The position numbers were made by a program, and so were the translations under genes. Below are positions 4,996 through 38,893 of a stretch of DNA of 38,893 nucleotides, piece by piece (position 1 is the first letter of the stretch; the number at the start of each line of letters is the position of its first letter). The notes under the pieces were generated by a model, which was given only the letters and a program-made list of their open reading frames with translations, was not told the DNA's origin and did no database searches. Origin of the DNA: Moorena sp. SIO3I8 (GTDB taxonomy: Bacteria > Cyanobacteriota > Cyanobacteriia > Cyanobacteriales > Coleofasciculaceae); the NCBI RefSeq assembly GCF_010692325.1, contig NZ_JAAHHW010000063.1:1-38893 (forward strand), given 5' to 3'.

Positions 4996-5307
4996 TAAAT
5001 TTATTTACCTCCTAGATTTTTTGTTGACATGAGTTGGATTTGGTGTGGATCGGGTATTGGTATTTCAGCTGAACACCAAACTCAACCTCGTAAGTCCTAT
5101 GGCCTTTAGTCTCGGCTCATTTATAACAGATGCTTCCCTTCCGTAGCATGCTTTTGAGATACCCCAACTTAACGTAGTAGAACGAGTCGGATTGCCCTCG
5201 AATTATTTTCTGTCACATCCCCCCTATAGTGGCTTACCCTAATGGCAATTTAATGGGTATTTTTGCCCTTTTTCAATGCTAACCTTCTGAAAGTCTCAGC
5301 AACCAGA
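4996..5307. other. 312-bp gap upstream of cysC, with leader inverted repeat
   Basis: The notable element is an imperfect inverted repeat, 5033-5046 with 5073-5086 (12 of 14 pairs; arms GTTGGATTTGGTGT and ACACCAAACTCAAC), 20 bp upstream of the cysC Shine-Dalgarno. It could be a leader structure or an operator of the sulfate genes. The rest should hold the cysC promoter and the end of purE. I see no gene, tRNA or known riboswitch. Confidence 0.5.
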
Positions 5308-5835
5308 TTAACTCATCTGCCCTAAGTATTGCTGATAACCTAACTCATCCAGCAATGCTTGCTTTTCCATCACTGATTGGGCTAAATTCTGGCGATACTG
5401 CTGCACTCTCTCTAGTAATTCCGGCTGATGAGTCCCCAAAATCTGCACTGCTAACAACCCTGCATTCTTGGCATTACCAATTGCTACAGTAGCGACGGGA
5501 ATTCCCCCAGGCATTTGAACAATTGAGTATAGGGAATCGATACCCTGCAAGTGACGACTAGACACTGGAACCCCAATTACAGGCAAGGGTGTTAGGGCCG
5601 CTACCATCCCAGGCAGATGAGCCGCCCCCCCAGCACCAGCGATAATAACTTTGAGTCCACGCTTGTGAGCGTTTTGGGCATAATTTACCATCCGTTCAGG
5701 GGTGCGGTGGGCGGAGACAATCGCCACTTCCGAAGGAACACCGAAGTCTTCACATACTGCGATCGCATTTTGCATGGTGGGCAAATCGGAATCGCTGCCC
5801 ATAATAATCCCAATTAACGGTTGGTTATTGGTCAT
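5308..5835 (-). CDS. purE: 5-(carboxyamino)imidazole ribonucleotide mutase
   Basis: A 175-residue class I PurE that moves the carboxyl group of N5-CAIR to make CAIR in de novo purine synthesis. Diagnostic motifs are MGSDSD (residues 12-17), the catalytic SAHRTPERM (41-49, His43) and [10 protein letters not shown]. No PurK partner is in the window. It is divergent from nagA with only 46 bp between start codons, so the two genes share a compact promoter region. Confidence 0.97.
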
Positions 5836-5881
5836 GGATCATGTTTGATGGTAGATGAATTAGACTTCGCCACATTCCCTA

Positions 5882-7090
5882 ATGACTCTAGATATTATCA
5901 ATGCTCGTGTCCCTAGTTACCACGGTTTACAGAATATTCACATTAATGCTCATGGAATTATTGACGCGATCGCACCCAACCCAGAAACTCTTCCTAAGCT
6001 AGAAACTCTTCCTAACCCGGCTATCCTTGACGTTGCTGGGGATTGGGTCTCCCTAGGGGGTGTGGATTTGCAGATTAATGGGGGGCTAGGCTTAGCCTTC
6101 ACCGATGTGGATTTTCACCACATCCCTTTACTCCAGGATATTTGTCAATTCCTTTGGCATCAGGGTGTCGATCACTTTTTACCCACTCTGGTGACTACTT
6201 CTGTAGAGAAGATTCAGCGATCGCTTTCTGTCTTTGCTAAATTTATCCCTTCCCAACCTTACCAGACCCCAAGCGCCCGCATCTTGGGTGTCCATCTAGA
6301 AGGGCCTTTTCTCAATCCCCAAAAACGGGGAGCTCATCCTCTTGAGTATCTATTACCACTTACTCTTGAAAATGTCAAGGAAGTTTTGGGATACTATGGT
6401 AATCTGGTTAAACTAATTACCATAGCGCCAGAGTTAGATAGCATTGGTGAGGTGATTCCGTATTTGCGATCGCGCAACATAATCGTTAGTCTTGGTCACT
6501 CCCAAGCTACAGCAGAGCAAGCCCAAAGCGCCTTTGAACATGGGGCATCCATGGTAACCCATGCTTTTAATGCCATGCCAGGACTCCATCACCGCAAACC
6601 AGGATTACTCGGAGCTGCCCTAGTTACTCCCGGTGTCCAGTGTGGACTAATTGCCGATGGTCAGCACGTTTGTTCCACCATGATCCAATTGCTGCTCCGT
6701 GCTGGGGGTTATGAACAAGGGATTTTTCTAGTTAGCGATGCCCTAGCACCAATAGGATTACCCGATGGCGTCTATCCCTGGGACACCCGCCAGATAGAGG
6801 TCAAAAATGGGACAGCACGGCTACCAGATGGGACATTATCTGGGACAACCTTGCCATTATTGGTAGGGGTAGAGAATTTAGTCCAGTGGGGGATTTGTAG
6901 CATTGAGAATGGCATTGCCCTCGCAACGGTTTCCCCTCGCCAAGCCATCGGTTTACCAACCCTCAACATTGGTCAACCAGCTCAGTTATTACGCTGGCAT
7001 CTCGATGAGGAAACATCAAAGCTGAGTTGGCAGCGTTTGTCAGATTATAGGAGTTCTCAATTGGTTGGGGTACAAAGTCCAGGGTTTTAG
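5882..7090 (+). CDS. nagA: N-acetylglucosamine-6-phosphate deacetylase
   Basis: A 402-residue amidohydrolase. It removes the acetyl group from GlcNAc-6-phosphate during amino-sugar and cell-wall recycling. Motifs in order: HLEGPFLNPQKRGAH (metal-binding Glu), SLGHSQATAEQA, VTHAFNAMPGLHHRKPG, GLIADGQHV and VSDALAPIG with the catalytic Asp. The length is normal. It is divergent from purE and no nagB or other amino-sugar gene is adjacent. The stop codon is followed at once by GGGAGCA repeats. Confidence 0.95.
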   Translation: MTLDIINARVPSYHGLQNIHINAHGIIDAIAPNPETLPKLETLPNPAILDVAGDWVSLGGVDLQINGGLGLAFTDVDFHHIPLLQDICQFLWHQGVDHFLPTLVTTSVEKIQRSLSVFAKFIPSQPYQTPSARILGVHLEGPFLNPQKRGAHPLEYLLPLTLENVKEVLGYYGNLVKLITIAPELDSIGEVIPYLRSRNIIVSLGHSQATAEQAQSAFEHGASMVTHAFNAMPGLHHRKPGLLGAALVTPGVQCGLIADGQHVCSTMIQLLLRAGGYEQGIFLVSDALAPIGLPDGVYPWDTRQIEVKNGTARLPDGTLSGTTLPLLVGVENLVQWGICSIENGIALATVSPRQAIGLPTLNIGQPAQLLRWHLDEETSKLSWQRLSDYRSSQLVGVQSPGF

Positions 7091-7342
7091 GGAGCAGGGA
7101 GCAGGGAGCAGGGAGCAGGGAAGAAAATTTAAATGTACCTTACGCTTACTACGAAACTCTATAGACTTCTCCGAGAAGTCGGGAATAGGGGGAAGAGTGT
7201 GTTAGACAGGGTAAGCGTGGTAAGCCTGGTAAACGTAGTAGATTTTTAGTAAGGGTAATCATAGAGTTAATCATACTCATGAGATACAGTCAATTTTCTT
7301 ACCCCTACTCCCTACTCCCTACTCCCTACTCCCTACTCCCTA
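7088..7342. repeat. repeat-rich gap upstream of psaE (GGGAGCA and CTACTCC arrays)
   Basis: In order: four to five GGGAGCA heptamers (7088-7122), a perfect 7-bp hairpin GACTTCT-CCG-AGAAGTC (7164-7180), three imperfect 9-mers of the GGTAAGCGT type (7210-7236), and five or more CTACTCC heptamers (about 7301-7342). The remaining ~90 bp to psaE should contain its promoter. I see no gene here. Confidence 0.75.
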
Positions 7343-7434
7343 GAGGTAAATTAATAAAACTTAAACAATTAAGTCAACGGAGAAGCCTAATTGAGTAGTA
7401 CGCTGTAGAACTAGAGCGTAAGGTAAATTTTTTT

Positions 7435-7650
7435 ATGGCAGAACTAAAACGTGGTGCAAAAGTTCGGATTAAAAGAAAAGAATCCTACTGGTATAACGAT
7501 GTGGGAACTGTGGCTAGTATAGACAAGAGTGGTATCAAATACCCAGTGATTGTCCGCTTTGATAAGGTCAACTATACTGGCTACAGCGGTAGCCCCTCTG
7601 GGGTTAACACCAATAACTATGCACCGACTGAACTGGAAGTAGTTGGTTAA
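7435..7650 (+). CDS. psaE: photosystem I reaction centre subunit IV (PsaE)
   Basis: A 71-residue protein, the family's normal size. It is a stromal-side extrinsic photosystem I subunit with an SH3-like fold that helps dock ferredoxin/flavodoxin and stabilise Psa[21 protein letters not shown] at the N-terminus and [17 protein letters not shown] near the middle are the family's hallmark segments. The ATG follows a TAAGGT sequence about 10 nt upstream. A hairpin follows the stop, so the gene is probably transcribed alone, as is usual for psaE. Confidence 0.98.
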
Positions 7651-7656
7651 CCTAGC

Positions 7657-7687
7657 CAGACTCAGGAATTTGAGTTCCTGGTGTCTG
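7657..7687 (+). terminator. hairpin after psaE
   Basis: CAGAC-CAGGAA pairs with TTCCTG-GTCTG around TTTGAG with one or two bulged bases, starting 7 bp after the psaE stop. There is no T-run after it, so it may protect the 3' end or act as an imperfect terminator. Confidence 0.5.
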
Positions 7688-7743
7688 TAGAGTGCTAAGT
7701 TAACACGCTTGCACTCACCATTGATTAACTAAAGCACTCAATC

Positions 7744-8592
7744 GTGCCGGAACTACCAGAAGTTGAAACAATTCGCCTGGGTCTAAATCAAGTGACTACA
7801 GGCCAAGAAATCCAGGGTGGAGAGGTGTTACTATCGCGCACCATCGCCCACCCTATTTCTCCGAAAGATTTTTTAGCCCAACTCAAAACTGTCACCATTA
7901 GTGATTGGTATCGACGGGGCAAATACCTACTCGCTAAACTAAGCAAGTCAGACAGTGATCAGGCCGGTTGGTTAGGTGTTCACCTCCGGATGACTGGTCA
8001 ACTGCTATGGCTAAGTCAAGACCAGCCTCACCCAAAACACACGCGAGTGCGATTGTTTTTCCCAAACAACCAGGAGTTAAGGTTTATCGACCAGCGCACC
8101 TTTGGTCGAATGTGGTGGATTCCGCCATCCCAATTACCAGAAACTATTATCACTGGTCTAAAGCAACTCGGACCAGAACCGTTTTCCCAGGAATTTTCTA
8201 CAGATTACCTAGTTAGTAAGCTCCATCACCGCCAGCGTGCGATTAAAACAGCCTTGCTCGATCAATCCCTGGTAGCAGGAATAGGTAATATCTATGCCGA
8301 TGAAGCATTATTCTTGAGTGGTATTCGACCAGAAACCCTTTGTAAAGATTTGGGGTTAGAGCAGATCGAAAAGCTGAGCATCGCGATTATCCAAGTATTG
8401 GAAAAAGCGATTGAGTCTGGTGGTACCACGTTTAGTGATTTTATCAACGTCCAGGGAGTCAATGGCAACTATAAGGGGATTGCCTGGGTTTATGGTCGCA
8501 CCGGAGAACCCTGTCGTATCTGTAGCACCCCCATCCAGCGAACCAAGTTAGTCGGTCGCTCAGCTCACTTTTGTCCGAACTGTCAGCGTTGA
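7744..8592 (+). CDS. mutM: formamidopyrimidine-DNA glycosylase (Fpg)
   Basis: A 282-residue bifunctional glycosylase/AP lyase that removes 8-oxoguanine and formamidopyrimidines from DNA. The mature N-terminus PELPEVETIR provides the catalytic proline and Glu. RRGKYLL holds the conserved Lys, and a C-terminal zinc finger (C-x2-C-x16-C-x2-C, residues about 257-280, with SAHFCPNCQR) completes the family signature. The start is GTG, fixed by the requirement for Pro at position 2. It lies between psaE and ndhO in the same direction. Oxidative base repair suits a photosynthetic cell. Confidence 0.97.
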   Translation: MPELPEVETIRLGLNQVTTGQEIQGGEVLLSRTIAHPISPKDFLAQLKTVTISDWYRRGKYLLAKLSKSDSDQAGWLGVHLRMTGQLLWLSQDQPHPKHTRVRLFFPNNQELRFIDQRTFGRMWWIPPSQLPETIITGLKQLGPEPFSQEFSTDYLVSKLHHRQRAIKTALLDQSLVAGIGNIYADEALFLSGIRPETLCKDLGLEQIEKLSIAIIQVLEKAIESGGTTFSDFINVQGVNGNYKGIAWVYGRTGEPCRICSTPIQRTKLVGRSAHFCPNCQR

Positions 8593-8594
8593 TA

Positions 8595-8789
8595 AGTGTG
8601 GGAAGTGTGGGAAGTGTGGGGAGATGGGGAGATTTCTATTAAGGGTAATTATCGGTTCTCATGGTAATAAGGTAAACAAGATTTTTTACCGACTCCCGAC
8701 TCCCAATTCCCGATTCCCGATTCCCGATTCCCAATTCCCTGTTCCCGATTCCCGATTCCCGATTCCCGATTCCCGATTTCTCATTCCCC
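8595..8789. repeat. TGTGGGAAG nonamers, then a long GATTCCC heptamer array
   Basis: Three or four GTGTGGGAA-type 9-mers and GGGGAGAT occur at about 8595-8632. GATTCCC/GACTCCC/AATTCCC heptamers run from about 8688 to 8785. The array ends about 40 bp before the ndhO start, leaving little room for an ordinary promoter between array and gene. Confidence 0.85.
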
Positions 8790-8824
8790 CGATAGAATAG
8801 AAGAGGAAAGACAAAAGAGATTTT

Positions 8825-9046
8825 ATGGCTGGGAAAATTAAAAAGGGAGTATTGGTTCGGGCTATCCAAGCCCAGTTAGAGGGTAGCCTGGAAGCAAAAG
8901 CAAGTGACCCCCGCTTTTCCTCTTATCTGTTTGAAACCGATGGGGAAATTGTTGATATTAAGGGGGATTATGCCCTGGTCAAATTTGGTCGGGTACCTAC
9001 CCCCAACATTTGGTTACGTATTGACCAGTTGGAAATCTCGTCTTAA
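8825..9046 (+). CDS. ndhO: NAD(P)H-quinone oxidoreductase subunit O
   Basis: A 73-residue oxygenic-photosynthesis-specific subunit of the thylakoid NDH-1 complex, which runs cyclic electron flow and respiration. The segments [19 protein letters not shown] and the C-terminal [17 protein letters not shown] match NdhO over its whole length. It is transcribed in the same direction as mutM and mdh. The 5' region is a heptamer array. Confidence 0.95.
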
Positions 9047-9065
9047 CCGGCCTGAAAAGTATCGT

Positions 9066-9103
9066 CTTAACGAGCATCCCTTTTGAAGACGATGCTCGTT
9101 AAG
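9066..9103. repeat. perfect 13-bp hairpin between ndhO and mdh
   Basis: CTTAACGAGCATC (9066-9078) is the exact reverse complement of GATGCTCGTTAAG (9091-9103), with a 12-nt loop. It begins 19 bp after the ndhO stop and could terminate or stabilise its mRNA, though no T-run follows. Its right arm is part of a dispersed element (9091-9121, GATGCTC...CTACGCGAACGCA) that recurs inverted at 35607-35643. Confidence 0.7.
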
Positions 9104-9144
9104 AGCGGCTACGCGAACGCATTTCCACCCTACCCATTCCGATC

Positions 9145-10116
9145 ATGGTACCCTATCCCAACTCCCCAATTGCCTGCCACGACAACCGTGTATCCGTAAT
9201 CGGTGGTGGTAGAGTAGGGAGTACTCTTGTCCAACGGATTGCTGAGAAAAATCTGGCCGATGTCGTACTCCTGGATATTAAACCAGGTATGCCCCAAGGC
9301 ATTGCTCTCGATTTAATGGAGGCCAGGGGCATTGAAGGTCACGATTGCCAAATTATCGGAACTAATGACTATGCTGATACTGCTGGTTCCGATGTGGTGG
9401 TGATTACGGCAGGAAGTCCCCGGAAACCAGGCATGAGTCGGGATGACCTGCTACAGATCAATTCCAAAATTGTGGTGGAAGCGGCTAAAAATGCGATCGC
9501 AAAATCCCCAGATGCCATGTTAATCGTGGTCACCAATCCCCTCGATGTGATGACCTACCTAGCCTGGCAAGCTACTGACTTACCACCCCATCGCGTCATG
9601 GGCATGGCAGGGGTGTTGGATTCTACCCGATTCCGGACATTCATTGCCATGGAAAATGGTGTATCCGTTGCGGATGTCAATGCTGTAGTGCTCGGAGGCC
9701 ATGGGGACCTAATGGTGCCACTACCCCGCTACTCTACCGTTAGCGGTGTTCCCATCACGGAACTGATGACACCAGACCGGATAGAAGCCCTGATCGAACG
9801 GACTCGCCGAGGCGGAGCAGAAATTGTAGAACTGATGCGCACTGGCAGTGCTTATTTTGCTCCAGCATCATCTGCCTGTTTGATGGTAGAAGCAATATTA
9901 CACAACCAATCCCGCCAAATCACCGCAGCTGCCTACCTTCAGGGTGAATATGGTTTAAAAGATATTTTTATAGGGGTACCCACCCGATTGGGGTGTCGAG
10001 GTATCGAAAAAATTTTGGAATTAAAGTTGACAGATTATGAACTGTCCTCCCTCAAGATATCAGCTGAATCAGTTCGTGACAATATTAAGAAGGCACAAGA
10101 GATGCTGGGTCATTAA
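9145..10116 (+). CDS. mdh: malate dehydrogenase (LDH-like type)
   Basis: A 323-residue NAD-dependent enzyme interconverting malate and oxaloacetate. The Rossmann motif VIGGGRVGSTLV (18-29) is followed by Asp44, which favours NAD over NADP. The substrate loop RKPGMSRDD (93-101) carries Arg where lactate dehydrogenases have Gln, which is why I call it malate dehydrogenase. VTNPLDVMTY and the catalytic-His motif GGHGD (184-188, His186) are present. The first ~12 residues (MVPYPNSPIACH) are a short extension before the conserved start; a later start is possible but no better ATG exists. A G-rich repeat array begins immediately after the stop. Confidence 0.95.
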   Translation: MVPYPNSPIACHDNRVSVIGGGRVGSTLVQRIAEKNLADVVLLDIKPGMPQGIALDLMEARGIEGHDCQIIGTNDYADTAGSDVVVITAGSPRKPGMSRDDLLQINSKIVVEAAKNAIAKSPDAMLIVVTNPLDVMTYLAWQATDLPPHRVMGMAGVLDSTRFRTFIAMENGVSVADVNAVVLGGHGDLMVPLPRYSTVSGVPITELMTPDRIEALIERTRRGGAEIVELMRTGSAYFAPASSACLMVEAILHNQSRQITAAAYLQGEYGLKDIFIGVPTRLGCRGIEKILELKLTDYELSSLKISAESVRDNIKKAQEMLGH

Positions 10117-26839: not shown

Positions 26840-29161
26840 ATGTTAGTTTGTCCCCAGTGTCAGTTCGAGAACCCAAATACCAACAAGTTTTGTCAACGAT
26901 GTGGAACTTCCCTAACCGATAAAACTTGTCATGAATGCGCTAGCCAAGTGCCCCTAAATGCTGAAACTTGTCACAACTGCGGTGCGTTCACAGGAACGGT
27001 TTGGAGGGCAATTATTTCTAAGCAGCAAAATTCGGCAACCTCCCCGCAGTATTCTCCTCAAACCCCAGTTGAGGTGTCAGAGTCCTCAACTGATCAGGCT
27101 ACGGCAGTAGCGGTGTCGCAACCAGAGTCTGACCAGACCGAGAGGGAACTAACCCAGCCAGCATCATTCCTAGAAACAAGACAAGAGTGGCTAACGGAAT
27201 CGGATACTATACTAACAGAGCCAGGGGATGATGGCACCTTGTCCCAAGCATCAACAGTCAACGCTGATGAAGCATCGATAAACAACAGAGGTGGCTGTGA
27301 TCAAGTGGAACTAGAATCTGGAGAGGAGCCATTACTAGAGATTAGCCCAATACAGAAGAAACCTCAATCTACTGAAGCTTCCACCTGGTCAATTCTTAAT
27401 CTCGAAAACCCAACTTCAGAAACAGCAACAATTGTCTATCTAGACCAAGGTAAGCGTTACAGAGTACTAGAACCTGAGAAACTCTCTCAGATAGGGGAAA
27501 GTAAGACAACAGACCATAGTATCTTTGTCACAGTTTTGGACTGCCAACCGTTACAAAAGTCTCCCCTAGAAACCCTGATTAATCAAACAAAATTGTCTCC
27601 AGAGAAATTCGATATATCGACAACCCAAGAGCAGCCAAAACCTTCCTCGAAAGAAAACGTAGACGTTTGGAAAGTCCTAGATATCCCACAGAGTGCTAAA
27701 CCCTATTTGGCTCTCAAGGACTTATGTTATCCTAGTGTGCCAGAAATTCATGATGTTTGGCAGCAAAATGGTAAGGCGATAATCCTGCTAGAAAACCGTT
27801 CAGAATGGCAGTTACTGAGTAAGTTGTGGGGGTCAGAAGAGTTTTCTAAACTGCAAATCCTATACTGGCTCGATGAAATGGCAAAGCTTTGGCAAGCTCT
27901 AGAGCCTTGGCATTGTCGTCAGAGTCTGTTGGAACTGACGAATCTCCGGGTGGATGAAGACCAAGCACTAGGTTTGGAGCGTCTATATCCGGATATGGAG
28001 GAAAATCCGCTAACCTTAGAGGATTTGGGACAACTGTGGCAACGATTATTTAACGAGTCCCAGCGAACCCAATTTACCTCCTTGTCAACGGTTGTCCGGC
28101 AGTTGTGTACTAAGGAAATTGAAACCATTGAGGAATTGCGATCGCATCTGCAAGGGATTGCTGACGAACAAGAATCTGACCCATACGAATCCGGTATGGA
28201 ATTAACTGAGGCTGTACTCTCAGAAATGGCAACGGCAGACACTGAACCTCCTGATAGCCAGGAATTATTGTCTGATCTACCAGGAAAAGAGCAACAAGGG
28301 GATGACATGCCAACGGTACTGTTGCCAATGAGCTTGCAGAGTCTCGATGATCTCGGTAGTACAGATATTGGTCATCAAAGAGATCATAATGAGGATTGTT
28401 TTGGCATCGAGACCCAACTCAAAAAGCAGGAAAATCCCATTGGTCGAACTATACAAGCTCGTGGTTTATATATTCTCTGCGATGGCATGGGAGGGCATGC
28501 GGCTGGGGAAGTAGCCAGTTCTATGGCAGTAGAGGTACTCCAGAATTACTTTAAACAAAATTGGCAAGACGAGTTTCCCACAGAAGATAGTCTCAGGAAA
28601 TCGGTATATGTAACAAATCAAGCGATTTTCGATATCAACCAACAAAATGCTCGCTCTGGCAGCGGTCGCATGGGTACGACTCTAGTCATGATGTTGATTC
28701 AAAATACCAAGGTAGGGATTGTCCATGTCGGAGATAGTCGGGTCTATCGTCTAACTCGCAAACGGGGCTTAGAGCAAATCACTATAGACCACGAGGTGGG
28801 TCAACGAGAAATCCAGCACGGAGTAGATCCAGAGCTGGCTTACTCTCGCCCTGATGCCTATCAACTAACTCAAGCCCTTGGACCGCGCAGTGAGCAATTC
28901 CTAAATCCGGATGTGCAATTCATAGATATCGCAGAAGATACTATATTCTTACTTTGTTCTGATGGTTTGTCAGATAATGACCTGTTGGAAAATCACTGGC
29001 AAACTCACTTAGCGCCTTTACTAAGTTCCCGAGCTAGCCTCGATCAGGGTCTGGCTAACTTGATTGAGCTGGCAAATGAGCATAATGGTCACGACAACAT
29101 TACACTAATCCTAGTTCGGGTGAAGGTGCGACCAAACTTGGCTCAACCAAAATTACATTAG
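26840..29161 (+). CDS. zinc-ribbon / kinase-like / PP2C-type protein phosphatase
   Basis: A 773-residue protein with AAGGA 9 nt before the ATG. It starts with two zinc ribbons (CPQCQFENPNTNKFCQRCG and CHECASQVPLNAETCHNCG), then a long acidic linker. Residues about 275-450 resemble a degraded kinase: ILLENRSEWQLLSKLW, HCRQSLLELTNLRVDEDQAL where an active kinase has HRDxKPxN, and TIEELRSHLQ like the last kinase helix. No HRD or DFG is present. Residues about 510-765 are a complete PP2C phosphatase (STDIGHQRDHNEDCF, LCDGMGGHAAGEVASS, HVGDSRVYRL, LLCSDGLSDN, GHDNITLI), with all metal-binding aspartates visible. It should dephosphorylate Ser/Thr residues. The FHA kinase gene follows, suggesting a matched pair. 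Confidence 0.93.
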   Translation: MLVCPQCQFENPNTNKFCQRCGTSLTDKTCHECASQVPLNAETCHNCGAFTGTVWRAIISKQQNSATSPQYSPQTPVEVSESSTDQATAVAVSQPESDQTERELTQPASFLETRQEWLTESDTILTEPGDDGTLSQASTVNADEASINNRGGCDQVELESGEEPLLEISPIQKKPQSTEASTWSILNLENPTSETATIVYLDQGKRYRVLEPEKLSQIGESKTTDHSIFVTVLDCQPLQKSPLETLINQTKLSPEKFDISTTQEQPKPSSKENVDVWKVLDIPQSAKPYLALKDLCYPSVPEIHDVWQQNGKAIILLENRSEWQLLSKLWGSEEFSKLQILYWLDEMAKLWQALEPWHCRQSLLELTNLRVDEDQALGLERLYPDMEENPLTLEDLGQLWQRLFNESQRTQFTSLSTVVRQLCTKEIETIEELRSHLQGIADEQESDPYESGMELTEAVLSEMATADTEPPDSQELLSDLPGKEQQGDDMPTVLLPMSLQSLDDLGSTDIGHQRDHNEDCFGIETQLKKQENPIGRTIQARGLYILCDGMGGHAAGEVASSMAVEVLQNYFKQNWQDEFPTEDSLRKSVYVTNQAIFDINQQNARSGSGRMGTTLVMMLIQNTKVGIVHVGDSRVYRLTRKRGLEQITIDHEVGQREIQHGVDPELAYSRPDAYQLTQALGPRSEQFLNPDVQFIDIAEDTIFLLCSDGLSDNDLLENHWQTHLAPLLSSRASLDQGLANLIELANEHNGHDNITLILVRVKVRPNLAQPKLH

Positions 29162-29353
29162 GTGATTAGTTGTATGTGATTAGTCATTAGTTGTATGTGA
29201 TTAGTCATTAGGTGATTAGTTGTATGTGATTAGTAGCTGCCAGTAGATTCTGGTTAGTCACTTTGGACAAAGGATAAAACCGACAAAGGATAAAACCGAC
29301 AAAGGATAAAACCGACAAAGGATAAAACCCACAAAGGACTTTGGACAAAGGAC
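29161..29353 (+). repeat. ATTAGT units and 16-mer AAAGGATAAAACCGAC array
   Basis: GTGATTAGTTGTAT-type units (29161-29235) are followed by four tandem 16-mers (about 29274-29336) each carrying AAAGGA. The final AAAGGA (29347-29352) lies 9 nt before the kinase ATG and is its probable ribosome-binding site, so the array extends into the translation signal. Confidence 0.85.
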
Positions 29354-29361
29354 AACTGACT

Positions 29362-30585
29362 ATGGTCACACTGACCCTATTAGATCCGTTAAGCCCCACT
29401 CCAGTGCAGCAGTGGAGCTTTCAGAGCAAATCTACGATTCGCATTGGTCGTGCTCCTGATAATGATGTGATTGTCGATGACCCGATCGTGTCACGACATC
29501 ACCTGGAACTCAGGGCTAGTGCTTCCCCATCGGGTCCGATGTGGCAGTTGGTCAATCAGGGTGCCAATGGCACCTTCCTCAATGGTGTCTTGGTTTCCCA
29601 GGGGGTGCTGCCGGAAAAGGCTCTGATTCAGCTAGCCCAGAAAGGTCCGAGGCTGGAATTCCAAGTTCAAACCCAGCAACTACCTTCCCTAGCACCCAAG
29701 CCCTTGACTGAGACTACTAAGCCATGCCAACACCAAGGCAATGCACCAGGCAATTTGTTCTGTATTCACTGTGGTCAACCCTTGGTGCCAGTCGAGGGAG
29801 TCATTCGCAACTACCATGTTTTGCGGACATTGGGACAGGGGGGAATGGGAACCACTTATCTTGCCTGGGACAAAGTTAACAGCAAGGATGGATACCCACT
29901 CCTACTAGTACTGAAGGAAATGAATGCTGACATGGCTCAAATTTCCAAGGCTCAAGAACTGTTTGAACGAGAGGCTCGCACCCTGAAAACCCTGAATCAT
30001 CCCGGAATTCCGCAGTATTACGACTTTTTTGTGGAAGGGGGGAAAAAATACTTAGCAATGGCTCTGATCCACGGTGAAGATTTAGAAAAACGTGTCTTGA
30101 GCACTGGACCAGTCACCTTGCCCCAGGCAGTAGAGTGGATGATTCAGACTTGCGATATCTTAGACTACATCCACGACCGCCAGCCGCCTCTAATCCACCG
30201 AGACGTTAAGCCCGCGAATTTGATGGTGCGCCATCGAGATAACCGAATTGTGATGTTGGATTTCGGTGCTGTTAAAGAAATTGGCACAATACCAGGCACA
30301 CGGATTGGTGCCGAGGGATATAGTGCTCCTGAACAAGACCGAGGTCAGCCTTGCACTCAATCGGATCTTTACGCCATTGGCCCAACTCTAATATTTCTGC
30401 TCACCGGGGAAGCTCCTCTAAAGTATTATCAAAGGCGTAGTTCAGGATATCGGTTTGATGTATCAGGCGTTCCCACTGTTACTCCCCAATTAAGGCAAGT
30501 AATTGAGCGGGTTTGCCAACCAAGAGCTTGCGATCGCTACCAAACGGCAAAAGAGCTGATCCAGGCTTTGGTTGCTTGTATTTAG
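29362..30585 (+). CDS. FHA domain / zinc-ribbon serine/threonine protein kinase
   Basis: A 407-residue protein from the ATG at 29362; an in-frame TTG at 29341 falls in repeat DNA. The FHA domain is residues about 1-100, with the phosphothreonine-binding set IGR (28-30), SRHH (44-47) and NGTFLNG (69-75). A single zinc ribbon (CQHQGNAPGNLFCIHCG, 122-138) resembles those of the upstream phosphatase. The kinase domain covers about 150-405: LGQGGMG (157-163), Lys185, HRDVKPAN (279-286) and DFG (300-302), so it should be active. No transmembrane segment is seen; it is cytosolic. It could phosphorylate and bind its own targets, with the adjacent PP2C removing the phosphate. Confidence 0.94.
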   Translation: MVTLTLLDPLSPTPVQQWSFQSKSTIRIGRAPDNDVIVDDPIVSRHHLELRASASPSGPMWQLVNQGANGTFLNGVLVSQGVLPEKALIQLAQKGPRLEFQVQTQQLPSLAPKPLTETTKPCQHQGNAPGNLFCIHCGQPLVPVEGVIRNYHVLRTLGQGGMGTTYLAWDKVNSKDGYPLLLVLKEMNADMAQISKAQELFEREARTLKTLNHPGIPQYYDFFVEGGKKYLAMALIHGEDLEKRVLSTGPVTLPQAVEWMIQTCDILDYIHDRQPPLIHRDVKPANLMVRHRDNRIVMLDFGAVKEIGTIPGTRIGAEGYSAPEQDRGQPCTQSDLYAIGPTLIFLLTGEAPLKYYQRRSSGYRFDVSGVPTVTPQLRQVIERVCQPRACDRYQTAKELIQALVACI

Positions 30586-34855: not shown

Positions 34856-35533
34856 ATGGTCATGGATGGAATCAATAAAGCAGAAATGCGGGAAAGACTG
34901 GGAAATCTTGAGAAGATACGTGATATAATAGTAGGCTCTAAGCTGCGAGAGTATGATACTCGCTTCACGAAGATAGAGTCTGACTTATCTATGTGGCAGC
35001 AGGAAATACGCGATCGCGTTGAGCAGATCAAAACGACTCTCTCAAAAGAAATGGCTGCTGCTGTAGATTCCCTGGAAAAAAAAATAAGTACTCTTAGTTT
35101 AACTGCAGCCGAAGAGAGGAATGAGATTCAGGAGCGGGTTGAGCTGCTCAACAAAAAGTTTTCTAAGAGTATTGAGGTGCTCGACGAGACAGTCTACAAG
35201 CAGTCAACCTCCCTAAAGAAGGAACTTTCAGAAACTAAAGAACAGCATCAGCAAGATGTGATCAATCTCAGAAAGCAGATCTTGGCCGAGCTGGAAACTA
35301 AATTTGCACAGCTCAAAGATGCCAAAGCCTCGAAAGCAGATCTCGGAGACATGTTGTTAGAGTTGGGTTTGAGGCTCAAAGGGACTGAATTGGTTCCAGC
35401 ACTCAAAGAAGCTAGTGATGGGTGGTCTGGGTTACCACAGACCAAAGGTCATAATGGTACGGTCATGGAGAAAACTGCTACTAATGATGACGAGCATCTC
35501 CAGTTAATCAAGCAAACTCAGACTTTGGAATAG
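34856..35533 (+). CDS. soluble coiled-coil protein, first gene of the GTPase-OmpA group
   Basis: A 225-residue protein from the ATG at 34856; an ATG two codons on and a GTG at 34832 are alternatives. It has no signal peptide or membrane segment. Residues about 10-170 are charged heptad-rich helix (RLGNLEKIRDIIVG, then EQIKTTLSKEMAAAVDSLEK and ETKEQHQQDVINLRKQILAE), predicting a long coiled coil. A short C-terminal part (LGLRLKGTELVPALKEASDG) is followed by a polar tail. I recognise no named family. It runs 148 bp ahead of the BON/OmpA-like gene in the same direction, so it may be a scaffold or adaptor for that protein. Confidence 0.8.
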   Translation: MVMDGINKAEMRERLGNLEKIRDIIVGSKLREYDTRFTKIESDLSMWQQEIRDRVEQIKTTLSKEMAAAVDSLEKKISTLSLTAAEERNEIQERVELLNKKFSKSIEVLDETVYKQSTSLKKELSETKEQHQQDVINLRKQILAELETKFAQLKDAKASKADLGDMLLELGLRLKGTELVPALKEASDGWSGLPQTKGHNGTVMEKTATNDDEHLQLIKQTQTLE

Positions 35534-35606
35534 ACTTGGCACAGTCCGGCAATGTCAGTAACAAAAATTAACTTGATTTTCTCGCTAAGATTAGTTTTAA
35601 ATCAAG

Positions 35607-35643
35607 GTGCGTTCGCGTAGCGGCTCTTTGCTGAGCATCGCTG
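35607..35643. repeat. inverted copy of the 9091-9121 dispersed element
   Basis: GTGCGTTCGCGTAGCGGCTC followed by TTTGCTGAGCATCGC is the reverse complement, with small changes, of GATGCTC...AAGAG-CGGCTACGCGAACGCA at 9091-9121. It lies 39 bp before the OmpA-like start codon. Confidence 0.75.
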
Positions 35644-35681
35644 ATTTTTCCAAAAGGTTAAATAGTAACGGATAGCCACCA

Positions 35682-38093
35682 GTGGCATTTTCAAACCAAA
35701 ATCCGGCTGATGCCTCTCAGCCGGAAAATTCTAGATCAGAGTCAATTGAGGTCAATTCGAGTACAGAAGACGAGTTGAAGGATTTACTTAATTTACTCGT
35801 TGACCTCAAGATTATTGATCACAGGGATAAACCTAGCCAACATCCTAACTCTAAGCAGCAAGGGATGACCTCTGATCAGGGAGACACTATTAAACAATCC
35901 GATTCATCCGGTGACCTTGAGGTTCCGGCTATTGAACCTCAAACTGACCGTGGGAGTAGCAGCCTCCCGTCTAGGGTTCAGGAGAAAGAACCATTAGCTC
36001 AAGAAAGGGATCAACCCCAATCCTTCGGTGTCAAAGTTTTTCCCGATCAGAACCCATCACCACAGCTTCCTACACCAAAGGAGCATCTGCCGCAAATGCC
36101 TCAAAATTCCGAAGATCCAGTATTAGCTGAGAAGTTAGTCCAATCCGAAACCACAAAAACCAACCAAGACCTGCAATCAAAGTCTGATCACGACACCTCC
36201 CAGGAATTAGACACCTTGGCTGAGATTTTACAAGAACTGGTGATATCTCCAGAAATGGCAGAGTTTCGTGACCAGATAGAAAGGCTAGCCCAGAGACAAG
36301 GCAGGCTTGAGCATCGGATTTATCAACCTCAAGAATTGATTAATCTATTGCTACCAGTGATGGCTAAGCTCCTGGATCTCACAGTAGCTCAGTTCAGTAC
36401 CTCGGTTACCGATTCCCTGACTCCCATCATTGATGAAGTCATTGACCACAGAACTCAACAGGATAAAGTGTGTGTGGGAGAAGCGATCGCTCCGGCAGTT
36501 CCAATAGCTATTTCCTCCCGGATCATGGAGTGTCCAGAGGAAGTTGGGTTTGCGATCGCACCAGAAATGGCAGCAGCGATCCGGCAACAGATTATAATTG
36601 AGCGAGACGCCATGGTAAATGCTCTGTATCCGGTCATTGGCAGTACCATTTCCACATACTTAGCAGAAGAAATCCGAGCTATCAATGAGAAACTGGAAAA
36701 TGCCCTCAGCGTTGAAGCAATTAAGCGCAAGATTCGCGCTAAGGTGCAGGGAGTTTCTGAAGCGGAATTGCTGTTTCGGGAGGTGATGCTGTTTCGGGCG
36801 CGAGCGATCTTTTTGATTCATAAAGACTCTGGTTTAGTGATTGCTGAGGTACAACCCTCTGACAGCCAGCACCTAGAGTCAGATATGGTAGCAGGGATGC
36901 TCACCGCTATCCGTAGCTTTGTCAATGACTGTATCGCTCAGTCTGGGGATGTGGCAGAAATCGATGCTATTGACTATGGTACATCCAAGATCATCCTGGA
37001 AGTAGAGGGATACTGCTACCTGGCGGTGTTAGTTCAAGGGGAACCCACCCACCAGTTCATTAATCAGTTGCGGGAAAGCCTAGAAACTATTATTACCCAT
37101 TATGGTAAACCGATCAAGTCTTTTGATGGATATCATACAACTATCCCGGTGGGAGTCAAGGGAATTTTACAAAATTTATTAGATCAATCCCTTAGTCAAG
37201 GGCGTCGTGATACTCAGGAAAATCGGAAAAAAGGCAAGAAACCGCCAGCCTTATTGGTGGTTGGCTTGGGGCTTCTGGGTTTAATCGCTGTATTTGGGGG
37301 AATTTATCAGCATAGGGCTAAAATAAACCGTCGCATTGAGCAAAAAACTCAACTTGCCCTCGCCTATTATGCCCCAGAAGTGTCTGATTATGGTTTAACA
37401 GTTAAAGCCAATCGCCAGAGACTAAAGCTAGCTGGACAGCTACCGAATCAGGCTCTGCGCTCAAACGTCGAGCAAATTGCCAAAGCTGCGGCCCCTAACT
37501 TAGCGTTGGATAATCGAATTGAGGTGATCGAACTCCCTTATACTGATGAGTTAACCAAAGCTCAAGTCCAACGGGTGAGAAACACCTTGAATCAAATGGA
37601 TGGAGTGGTAATTGTAGCATCTTATACAGAAGGCAGGGTGACCGTAAAAGGAGCGATACTCTATGCTAAAGATTTCCCTAAGATTACCGAAGCCTTTGAG
37701 AACATTCCTGGTGTCAAGTCGGTCGAGAACAATTTACAACTCCACGGATCAGACCTTACCAGCCGGATCTACTTTGATCTTGGTTCAGCCCAGTTGAAAC
37801 CAGAGGATATAGGCACTAAAATCCGATCAATTAAGGAATTTCTGGAGCGGTATCCTCAAAAGCACCTGAGGATAATCGGCTACGCCGATCCTAGGGGTCA
37901 ACTTACCGAAAATCAGGGATTGGCACAACAACGAGCCCAAATGGTAAAAGATGTGCTTGTTCAGCAAGGCATTGATCCCAAGCGGCTGCAAGTGCGTGGG
38001 GTTGGCAAACGCCCCCCAGATGTTGATGCTAGTCAACCGCTGTGGTTAAATCGATGTGTCGTATTTGATCCGTTTACCAAGAAATCCAGTTGA
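35682..38093 (+). CDS. single-span protein with cytosolic roadblock/longin-like domain and periplasmic BON/OmpA domains
   Basis: An 803-residue protein starting at GTG 35682; no ATG nearby is better. Residues 1-175 are acidic, Pro/Gln-rich and probably disordered. About 176-355 is helical. About 370-475 (RARAIFLIHKDSGLVIAEVQ, then AEIDAIDYGTSKIILEVEGY and CYLAVLVQGEPTHQFINQLR) has the beta-beta-alpha-beta-beta-beta-alpha order of roadblock/longin domains; this is a fold guess. A basic run (RKKGKK) precedes one membrane helix (522-541). Residues about 560-690 resemble BON domains (VTVKGAILYAKDFPKITEAF, GVKSVENNLQLHG). Residues 693-796 are an OmpA/MotB peptidoglycan-binding domain (IYFDLGSAQLKPEDI, IIGYADPRG, LAQQRAQMVKDVL). 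It would connect cytoplasm to cell wall. The next gene is a small GTPase, the usual partner class of roadblock/longin proteins. Confidence 0.85.
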   Translation: MAFSNQNPADASQPENSRSESIEVNSSTEDELKDLLNLLVDLKIIDHRDKPSQHPNSKQQGMTSDQGDTIKQSDSSGDLEVPAIEPQTDRGSSSLPSRVQEKEPLAQERDQPQSFGVKVFPDQNPSPQLPTPKEHLPQMPQNSEDPVLAEKLVQSETTKTNQDLQSKSDHDTSQELDTLAEILQELVISPEMAEFRDQIERLAQRQGRLEHRIYQPQELINLLLPVMAKLLDLTVAQFSTSVTDSLTPIIDEVIDHRTQQDKVCVGEAIAPAVPIAISSRIMECPEEVGFAIAPEMAAAIRQQIIIERDAMVNALYPVIGSTISTYLAEEIRAINEKLENALSVEAIKRKIRAKVQGVSEAELLFREVMLFRARAIFLIHKDSGLVIAEVQPSDSQHLESDMVAGMLTAIRSFVNDCIAQSGDVAEIDAIDYGTSKIILEVEGYCYLAVLVQGEPTHQFINQLRESLETIITHYGKPIKSFDGYHTTIPVGVKGILQNLLDQSLSQGRRDTQENRKKGKKPPALLVVGLGLLGLIAVFGGIYQHRAKINRRIEQKTQLALAYYAPEVSDYGLTVKANRQRLKLAGQLPNQALRSNVEQIAKAAAPNLALDNRIEVIELPYTDELTKAQVQRVRNTLNQMDGVVIVASYTEGRVTVKGAILYAKDFPKITEAFENIPGVKSVENNLQLHGSDLTSRIYFDLGSAQLKPEDIGTKIRSIKEFLERYPQKHLRIIGYADPRGQLTENQGLAQQRAQMVKDVLVQQGIDPKRLQVRGVGKRPPDVDASQPLWLNRCVVFDPFTKKSS

Positions 38094-38177
38094 AAGCCCC
38101 TTTGGTTTAGCTAGGAGATCACAACAAGTTATGGACTTTAGTCCCTTGTATATTAAATGTGTATTAAATCTCAAATC

Positions 38178-38189
38178 AGGAGGTGATCC
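38178..38189 (+). promoter_or_regulatory. 12-nt perfect anti-SD complement without an adjacent start
   Basis: AGGAGGTGATCC is fully complementary to the conserved 3' end of 16S rRNA. No start codon lies at the proper distance: the next 30 nt contain TAG and TAA and no ATG. It could be a ribosome standby or decoy site in the operon mRNA, or chance. The rest of the 287-bp gap before the GTPase gene shows no gene. Confidence 0.4.
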
Positions 38190-38380
38190 AACTACTGCAA
38201 TAGATCACTAACACTAAAACCATAGTGCTGTCTGGGAACATACGGTCGGTGAGCAATTAGGTGTTCAAGTCCGCTGAAGAAATCATATCGTAAACTTGTT
38301 CAGATGTGGAGCCACGCCCATCTCTTAACAACTGTTTACAATCCCCGAGAGTTCAAACCAGTTGTCAGCAACCAGTAACA

Positions 38381-38893
38381 ATGTCCACTATTGATCGAAA
38401 AATTTGCCTAGTTGGAGACTTTGGTGTAGGCAAAACTAGCCTAATCCGCCGATTTGTGGAGGGTGTGTTTAGTGACCAATATCTTTCAACAGTCGGAGTG
38501 AAAATTTCCCGCAAAATCATAAAATTTAAGGATGAAACCCGATCAGAACTGCTGGATATAAAATTGATGATTTGGGATTTAGAAGGTCATACTAAATTTA
38601 AGGGAATTTCACCAACTTATTTAAAAGGAGCTCAGGGTGCAATTATTGTTGCTGATGTAACTCGCATGGAAACCATTGAGCACATTGTTCATCATATCGA
38701 TCTGTTTTTATCCATCAATCCCAAAGGGTTGATTATTACTGCCTTAAATAAATCCGACTTAGTTGATCAAGCAAAACTGGAGGAATTGACACAGATGTTA
38801 CAGAAAAAAACTGCCCAGCAAGACCAAGTCATAGCAAGTTATTATACCTCAGCGAAAACCGGGTTATACGTCGATGATATATTTTACCAATTA
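38381..38893 (+). CDS. Rab/Ras-like small GTPase (3' end beyond window)
   Basis: At least 171 residues, open to the right edge. The G motifs are all visible: G1 GDFGVGKTS (12-20), G2 Thr37 in STVGVKI, G3 DLEGH (66-70), G4 NKSD (123-126) and G5 TSAKTG (156-161). The order and spacing are those of a Ras-superfamily protein, close to Rab in style (ICLVGDFGVGKTSLIRRFVE). The residue after the G3 glycine is His70, where Rab/Ras have the catalytic Gln, which suggests slow or differently activated GTP hydrolysis. It follows the BON/OmpA-like gene by 287 bp in the same direction. It probably acts as a switch on that membrane protein. Confidence 0.9.
   Translation, partial: MSTIDRKICLVGDFGVGKTSLIRRFVEGVFSDQYLSTVGVKISRKIIKFKDETRSELLDIKLMIWDLEGHTKFKGISPTYLKGAQGAIIVADVTRMETIEHIVHHIDLFLSINPKGLIITALNKSDLVDQAKLEELTQMLQKKTAQQDQVIASYYTSAKTGLYVDDIFYQL

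Follow-up and report, generated by a model that had tools for sequence, protein, structure and literature searches.

The closest described counterparts of the locus analysed here are the Group 1 Rup cassettes, which a 2014 survey presents as genes for a coiled-coil protein, a protein joining an unassigned domain to a membrane helix and an OmpA domain, and a small GTPase (PMC4316618). The survey's account of this group describes GTPases very similar to Rab, Ran, Ras and Rho in which the G3 glutamine is missing, includes Cyanobacteria among the carriers and gives no Rup member as characterised at that date (PMC4316618). The window, i.e. the whole 38,893-nucleotide stretch analysed, is a contig of the 8-Mb genome of Moorena sp. 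SIO3I8; the closest named relatives are Moorena species (for the second protein, 80-89% identity over its best segment). Its final ∼4 kb contain three same-strand open reading frames (ORFs), which share with Group 1 Rup the gene set, a GTPase without a conserved G3 catalytic Gln and cyanobacterial carriers. The locus differs in that the conserved domain, left unknown in the survey's text on the group, is here assigned to the longin fold by structure prediction, and in that the fourth, output gene does not adjoin the three Moorena cassettes examined. The gene arrangement, which the original prediction had considered new, is already known (PMC4316618), and the predicted longin assignment is the addition of the present work. 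Among openly licensed PMC papers none stating a bacterial or prokaryotic longin was found, a result that does not establish absence in print.

Pairs of longins serve as exchange factors for Rabs in TRAPP, Mon1-Ccz1 and Fuzzy-Inturned, as far as the cited accounts extend (PMC8833172, PMC6864590, PMC10933270). The TRAPP core, Mon1-Ccz1 and Fuzzy-Inturned share with the Moorena locus a canonical longin topology, here predicted, paired with a Rab-type GTPase; however, they are eukaryotic assemblies of several subunits or several longins, whereas each bacterial chain would carry one longin tied to a peptidoglycan-binding domain. Exchange activity belongs to those complexes, and the window longin is likened to them by predicted fold. 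In the Asgard isolate MK-D1, small GTPase genes are generally not in operons with longin or roadblock-longin genes, and the Asgard longin and roadblock-longin proteins (8yqg), within the scope of the source's account, differ from the single bacterial cassette on a membrane anchor found here (PMC10933270). The MglA-MglB system of Myxococcus and Thermus also pairs a bacterial small GTPase with a partner of the roadblock/longin superfamily, and MglB shows that related platforms serve bacterial GTPases. MglB is nevertheless a soluble roadblock and MglA belongs to another GTPase family, whereas the Moorena locus combines a predicted longin topology and a putative wall anchor with a GTPase of Rab-like type. 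Ragulator (LAMTOR) with Rag likewise provides a membrane-tethered platform of this superfamily for small GTPases, and both appear among the fold matches, but it is lysosomal and uses heterodimeric roadblocks and Rag-type GTPases. A bacterial-operon longin beside a Rab-like GTPase would supply a testable mechanism for an uncharacterised cassette and bear on the origin of the Rab-longin partnership, and the cassette could offer a means to fix GTPase state at cell-wall sites.

The cytosolic domain of the second protein

The cassette comprises the following features, with GTPase residues numbered in a frame of 196 amino acids:

34856..35533, + strand: coiled-coil protein, first gene (ORF open from GTG 34832; in-frame ATGs at 34856 and 34862)
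35682..38093, + strand: second gene, longin / membrane helix / BON / OmpA protein of 803 residues
36465..36794, + strand: conserved helical stalk preceding the longin, residues 262-371 (77-homologue alignment and model 1)
36795..37199, + strand: predicted longin domain, residues 372-506, cytosolic side (models mded7f22423e1, model 1, and m01da237f9455, model 2; fold searches)
37248..37304, + strand: single membrane helix, residues 523-541 (hydrophobic-span scan)
37572..37742, + strand: BON domain, residues 631-687 (Pfam E 1.8e-8; probably periplasmic by topology)
37770..38039, + strand: OmpA/MotB-type peptidoglycan-binding domain, residues 697-786 (Pfam E 1.2e-15)
38381..38893, + strand: Rab-like small GTPase of the Group 1 Rup type, third gene (from ATG 38381; cut by the contig end)
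38414..38437, + strand: G1/P-loop GDFGVGKT, residues 37-44
38573..38590, + strand: G3 WDLEGH, residues 90-95

The overall layout agrees with the original prediction, which had proposed three same-strand genes, a membrane helix at residues 522-541 and an OmpA/MotB-like C-terminus in the second protein. The OmpA match, at 58.1 bits, exceeds its cut-off of 27.2, and solved OmpA-family structures are among its relatives. All but one of 80 homologues have a hydrophobic span directly behind the longin, and in none does a span fall within the first 40 residues. This span position, together with the usual location of OmpA-like domains, suggests that the BON/OmpA half is periplasmic and the N-terminal half cytosolic.

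No Pfam domain exceeds the cut-off in the cytosolic region of the 803-residue protein, and the assignment of this region derives from two structural models. Model 1 covers residues 262-514 and was built on an alignment of 77 homologues, with an overall predicted local distance difference test (pLDDT) of 70.7. The pLDDT is 82-93 for the majority of strands and the final two helices, 60-77 for strand 3 and the first of the long helices, and below 50 in the stalk at residues 309-332 and 337-342. Its topology is b-b-a-b-b-b-a-a, plus a low-confidence helix before strand 1; in model numbering, DSSP places strands at 111-119, 125-129, 167-171, 174-181 and 184-191, and helices at 139-160, 196-218 and 229-245. 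Model 2, led by the Microcoleus vaginatus sequence and restricted to the domain (64 rows, largely shared with the alignment of model 1), has the same topology, with a pLDDT of 77.9 and a predicted template modelling score of 0.71. Both models show two helices after strand 5 (block pLDDT ∼85-93), and the predicted topology matches the canonical longin order, bb-a-bbb-a-a, whereas roadblocks start with a helix and end with a single one in the cited accounts (PMC8833172, PMC6864590).

Fold comparison of both models identifies longins as the closest solved folds. For model 1, Foldseek retrieves AP sigma subunits, Mon1-Ccz1, Sec22b and Rag GTPase complexes, and also MglB, at E ∼1e-4 to 1e-3. The highest VIA-align Z scores for this model belong to VAMP7 (13.8), Sec22b (13.6), SYBL1 (12.8), Ykt6 (12.6), synbindin (12.1) and a Lokiarchaeal longin (12.1), while rows for TRAPP, Fuzzy-Inturned and Mon1-Ccz1 reach ∼10-11; for model 2, Sec22b, VAMP7, synbindin and one TRAPPIII subunit are among the highest rows. 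The best 50 VIA-align rows per model are longin/roadblock-superfamily chains by name, with longins highest, and these rows mostly span the whole domain. In a viral structure library no entry matched at E ≤ 0.001; the top rows include a viral longin-domain protein and synaptobrevins. The unassigned cytosolic domain of the Group 1 Rup second protein thus very probably has a longin fold, to judge from these models.

The original prediction had placed a roadblock/longin-like domain at residues 370-475. Its superfamily is upheld by the predicted fold of both models, but its roadblock/MglB leaning is not, since the topology and the best matches indicate a longin at about 372-506. Robl_LC7 finds no match in the 803 residues at E up to 10. 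In hhalign comparisons with 25 roadblocks of the phylum, a profile of close relatives reaches a probability of 3.8% and one of a wider set 32.6%, in register; the latter value is expected, because longin and roadblock folds are related. A roadblock/MglB identity is therefore not preferred in view of the two helices after strand 5, the match ranking and the profile comparison, although roadblocks do appear in the match lists. The window contig has no Robl_LC7 match, and the three in the same genome lie on other contigs. Robl_LC7 genes on contigs C81 and C101 (L001, L002, L037, L039, L040) have Ras-type GTPase matches ∼0.5-1.8 kb away, perhaps as MglA/MglB-type pairs separate from the cassette.

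A paralogue of ∼1200 residues with the same longin, membrane helix and OmpA end occurs in Microcoleus and other Oscillatoriales (L145, at 5001-8612; L132, L137, L142, L143, L148, L149, L150, L153, L158). These loci lack a coiled-coil or GTPase match in the stretches examined, some of which end soon after the paralogue. In L145 the stalk is longer and carries AIAP-type motifs every ∼65 residues.

The GTPase and its conserved gene set

The third protein matches the Pfam family Ras (E 1.2e-25) and, truncated by the contig end, is ∼13 residues shorter than its Moorena bouillonii homologue. As anticipated, all five motifs G1-G5 can be read: beyond G1 and G3, the switch-I Thr is residue 62, G4 is NKSD (148-151) and G5 is SAK (182-184). 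The best 60 of 679 chains in the PDB search are Rab-named, except one row named only as a GTP-binding protein, and the lead matches are Rab22A (E 3.6e-21), plant RABF2b, Rab14 and Rab1B. Across 34 aligned family members, the invariant positions are K5, G10, G15-K16-T17-S18, T35, W63-D64, G67, N121-K122, D124 and S155-A156. In most Ras-type GTPases the residue after the G3 glycine is Gln. At this catalytic position the window protein has His, and Gln occurs in 5 of 31 aligned GTPases, so that the residue is unconserved rather than always absent. A Cys within the last five residues is found in none of 66 GTPase homologues in the named loci and in one of 30 further frames (L074, a single Cys); since a C-terminal Cys is almost never seen among homologues, eukaryotic-style double-Cys prenylation appears unlikely from sequence. 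The genome encodes one GTPase gene of this type. The Rab likeness named in the original prediction is upheld, and an MglA identity is rejected: the hallmarks of MglA, in the survey's text on that family, are a replaced G3 Asp and an MglB gene nearby (PMC4316618), whereas this Asp is invariant in 34 of 34 aligned GTPases, the nearest solved relatives are Rabs and the contig has no Robl_LC7.

The first gene encodes a protein of ∼225-233 residues, depending on the start. In keeping with the soluble coiled-coil protein that had been proposed, it has no hydrophobic span, and the Pfam/NCBIfam scan returns coil-type matches only, weak and below the cut-off (SpiroCoCo at E 4.5e-5). Of the 80 named loci, 53 have an ORF with the motif IR[DE]..[FL]G.Q.R.Y..R[FIL]; the corresponding residues are IRDIIVGSKLREYDTRF in the window protein and IRDLLFGNQMQDYDRRF in its Mesorhizobium counterpart.

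Genomic neighborhood analysis supports the expectation that the gene order is kept across cyanobacteria. The 80 named loci are the best 80 of 465 confirmed loci and hence close relatives. Coiled-coil protein, longin protein and GTPase occur in that order in 64 of them, 63 on a single strand (in L092 the GTPase is on the opposite strand), with one intergenic gap above 1.5 kb in L099, L106 and L119. Two loci lack the first gene and three the GTPase, four of these cases falling at the end of a locus or contig, and the longin protein stands alone in 11, ten of which are the ∼1200-residue paralogue; a coiled-coil homologue lies upstream of the second gene in 67. Since homologues of all three ORFs occur in conserved order, the cassette is not a chance grouping. 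A further 39 neighbourhoods were hand-picked from profile matches, not drawn at random: 22 have the three genes ordered on one strand (with the GTPase 3.4 kb further on in L058), the coiled-coil match alone is absent from 8 and the GTPase from 3, and 6 have just the second gene (L068-L070 among the 39 match the periplasmic half only). A more distant cyanobacterial group, whose profile matches that of the main group with a probability of 100%, keeps the pair: in 9 of 9 picked loci the GTPase comes after the longin protein, and 5 of these also show an upstream coiled-coil match.

Of 291 cyanobacterial genomes, 66 match the longin profile, 67 the GTPase profile, 64 both and 222 neither, after removal of three GTPase matches in frames above 900 residues (G173, G276, G015); as the genomes are related, this co-occurrence should be read as a pattern rather than as independent evidence, and its Fisher value is no real probability. 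The GTPase lies at most 2.5 kb downstream of 58 of the 70 longin genes. In G225 and for one copy in G200 (C82), the longin gene lies far from the ends of its contig and the GTPase is on a different one, so both are kept though apart; in G278, G226, G075, G232 and G165 they are also on different contigs, some at contig ends that may be assembly breaks. Among 117 genomes drawn from the phylum, 15 match the longin profile, all of the window's own order or class.

Beyond cyanobacteria, the search covered a plasmid collection and recovered the GTPase in two Rhizobium records and one Mesorhizobium record, besides one Nostoc. Mesorhizobium sp. WSM1497 encodes, in order, a hypothetical protein, an OmpA family protein, an annotated Rab family GTPase and a cyclase, an order shared by Rhizobium sp. 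007. Comparison of the Mesorhizobium OmpA protein with the longin-region profile gives a probability of 99.5, and the first gene of that locus bears a similar motif, IRD..FG.Q...YD.RF. By eye, the rhizobial longin-OmpA proteins (L196, 2920-5985; L197, 2921-5986) contain about four similar tandem periplasmic units of ∼130 residues each, which suggest a varying length of the wall-facing arm.

An N-terminal domain of ∼140 residues is common to 58 of the 64 loci in which an ORF of at least 150 codons starts within ∼420 bases of the GTPase end. Six of these fourth-gene proteins were scanned: all contain PAS domains, four end in histidine-kinase modules (two followed by receiver or Hpt domains), one ends in a nucleotide cyclase, and the sixth is truncated where its locus stops. 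Three Moorena loci carry other genes in this position: L084 has a Ser/Thr kinase by Pfam, L085 a protein whose N-terminal part is nearly that of the L084 product, and L083 a different ORF. The window contig ends inside the GTPase gene, before any fourth-gene position; the N-terminal domain has no match in the window's own genome, while the same search matched 6 of 7 others. It thus seems that the cassette of Moorena either operates with no fourth component or uses an unlinked regulator too diverged to detect. Two genes of the fourth type, 2-3 kb apart, lie downstream of the GTPase in G017 (C476), G142 (C59) and G283 (C6), where one GTPase may serve several outputs. In L083 of Moorena bouillonii (8495-9766), a 424-residue ORF between the GTPase gene and a 678-residue ORF looks IscB-like and is possibly a mobile insertion.

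Proposed mechanism and alternatives

The locus is best explained, with somewhat better than even confidence, as a Group 1 Rup signalling cassette in which a wall-anchored longin platform binds the neighbouring Rab-like GTPase at its switches. The second protein would be held in the inner membrane by one helix, with its BON and OmpA domains reaching towards the peptidoglycan, while the cytosolic helical stalk would carry the predicted longin. Longin and roadblock platforms are mostly dimers, so this longin is probably homodimeric, and it may contact the GTPase at the switch regions; such direct binding is likely by analogy. The longin would most plausibly be an exchange factor or a state-reading receptor, so that active GTPase gathers at wall-anchored sites. 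Exchange, as opposed to another platform activity, is a tentative assignment by analogy with eukaryotic longins. The relay of nucleotide state to the wall that the original prediction had envisaged, and a role in polarity, gliding or septation, are conjectural. Because the catalytic Gln is not kept, GTP hydrolysis probably requires a partner in trans. The coiled-coil protein could serve as scaffold or effector, and in most relatives examined the next gene, with its own conserved N-terminal domain, would often supply a kinase or cyclase output.

Several results temper this explanation. Fuz_longin_1 matches 6 of 77 homologues (best E 1.2e-4), which is noise level given that unrelated families match up to 22 of the 77, and 1 of 27 in the wider set (E 0.03); PDB sequence searches with two domain profiles (A3, A5) found no longin. 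In a mirror-tree analysis of 79 loci (L084 and L085 dropped, some loci in duplicate), the partial correlation with the GTPase is 0.17 for the longin and 0.24 for the periplasmic OmpA domain; with duplicates removed (76 loci), the values are 0.18 and 0.27. The low-confidence helix before strand 1 (H99-107 in model 1, H17-25 in model 2; block pLDDT ∼52-73) is a counterpart of the first roadblock helix, and the roadblock-type proteins Gse1 and Ego3 score 10.0 and 9.8 over 101-110 residues with model 2 (VIA-align). This helix and the Ego3-type matches slightly lower confidence in the longin fold and in the explanation as a whole, and raise that in a roadblock.

It is nonetheless improbable that the domain is a homodimer of the roadblock/MglB type with GTPase-activating activity, the role of MglB towards MglA: set against that helix of doubtful confidence are the two confident helices after strand 5, the Z scores of 12-13.8 that place longins highest, the 3.8% close-relative profile probability and the lack of a Robl_LC7 match in the protein, while the GTPase is not an MglA and the Robl_LC7 matches of the genome are on other contigs. 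The lack of a significant sequence link to longins would also suit a generic PAS/GAF/profilin-like sensor fold that detects a small ligand and resembles longins by convergence. This is highly doubtful in view of the 50 best fold rows per model, all of the longin/roadblock superfamily by name, and of the Rab-like GTPase encoded next door.

The other two alternatives accept the longin and differ on its partner or activity. Longins can bind helices of non-GTPase partners, and the domain might bind the coiled-coil protein or another partner while the GTPase merely shares the operon and pathway. The mirror-tree analysis, which gives no longin-specific tie to the GTPase, fits this view, yet we consider it unlikely, as longin and GTPase are kept together even when unlinked (G225 and G200 C82, and the five further genomes with separate contigs, some of them perhaps assembly breaks). 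A real possibility, though short of probable, is that the longin is an effector or receptor that reads one nucleotide form without exchange, while the fourth component or unlinked proteins would control nucleotide loading and unloading of the GTPase. SRX with SR-beta and the adaptor sigma and mu subunits near Arf1 are longin models for such a role, and SRX and adaptor longins are among the fold matches. In addition, the invariant Gln of the fourth gene has been suggested, in the survey's text on this group, as a stand-in for the missing catalytic Gln (Wuichet and Sogaard-Andersen, PMC4316618). However, Moorena would then need another regulator, because the fourth-gene domain is neither beside the three Moorena cassettes nor matched in the window's genome.

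Returning to the wall-anchored platform, a bolder form of it would make the cassette a bacterial Rab-longin switch, in which a transmembrane longin encoded in the same operon loads or reads a Rab-type GTPase and shares descent with the Asgard and eukaryotic modules. This form is speculative and somewhat unlikely; if true, the longin-Rab pairing usually traced to archaea would be older, or would have been exchanged between domains of life.

Other genes of the window

Upstream of the cassette (26840-30585), a double-zinc-ribbon/PP2C phosphatase gene precedes an FHA/Ser-Thr kinase gene, likely a kinase-phosphatase pair. On the - strand, positions 234-2537 encode a caspase-like protein of 767 residues (Peptidase_C14).
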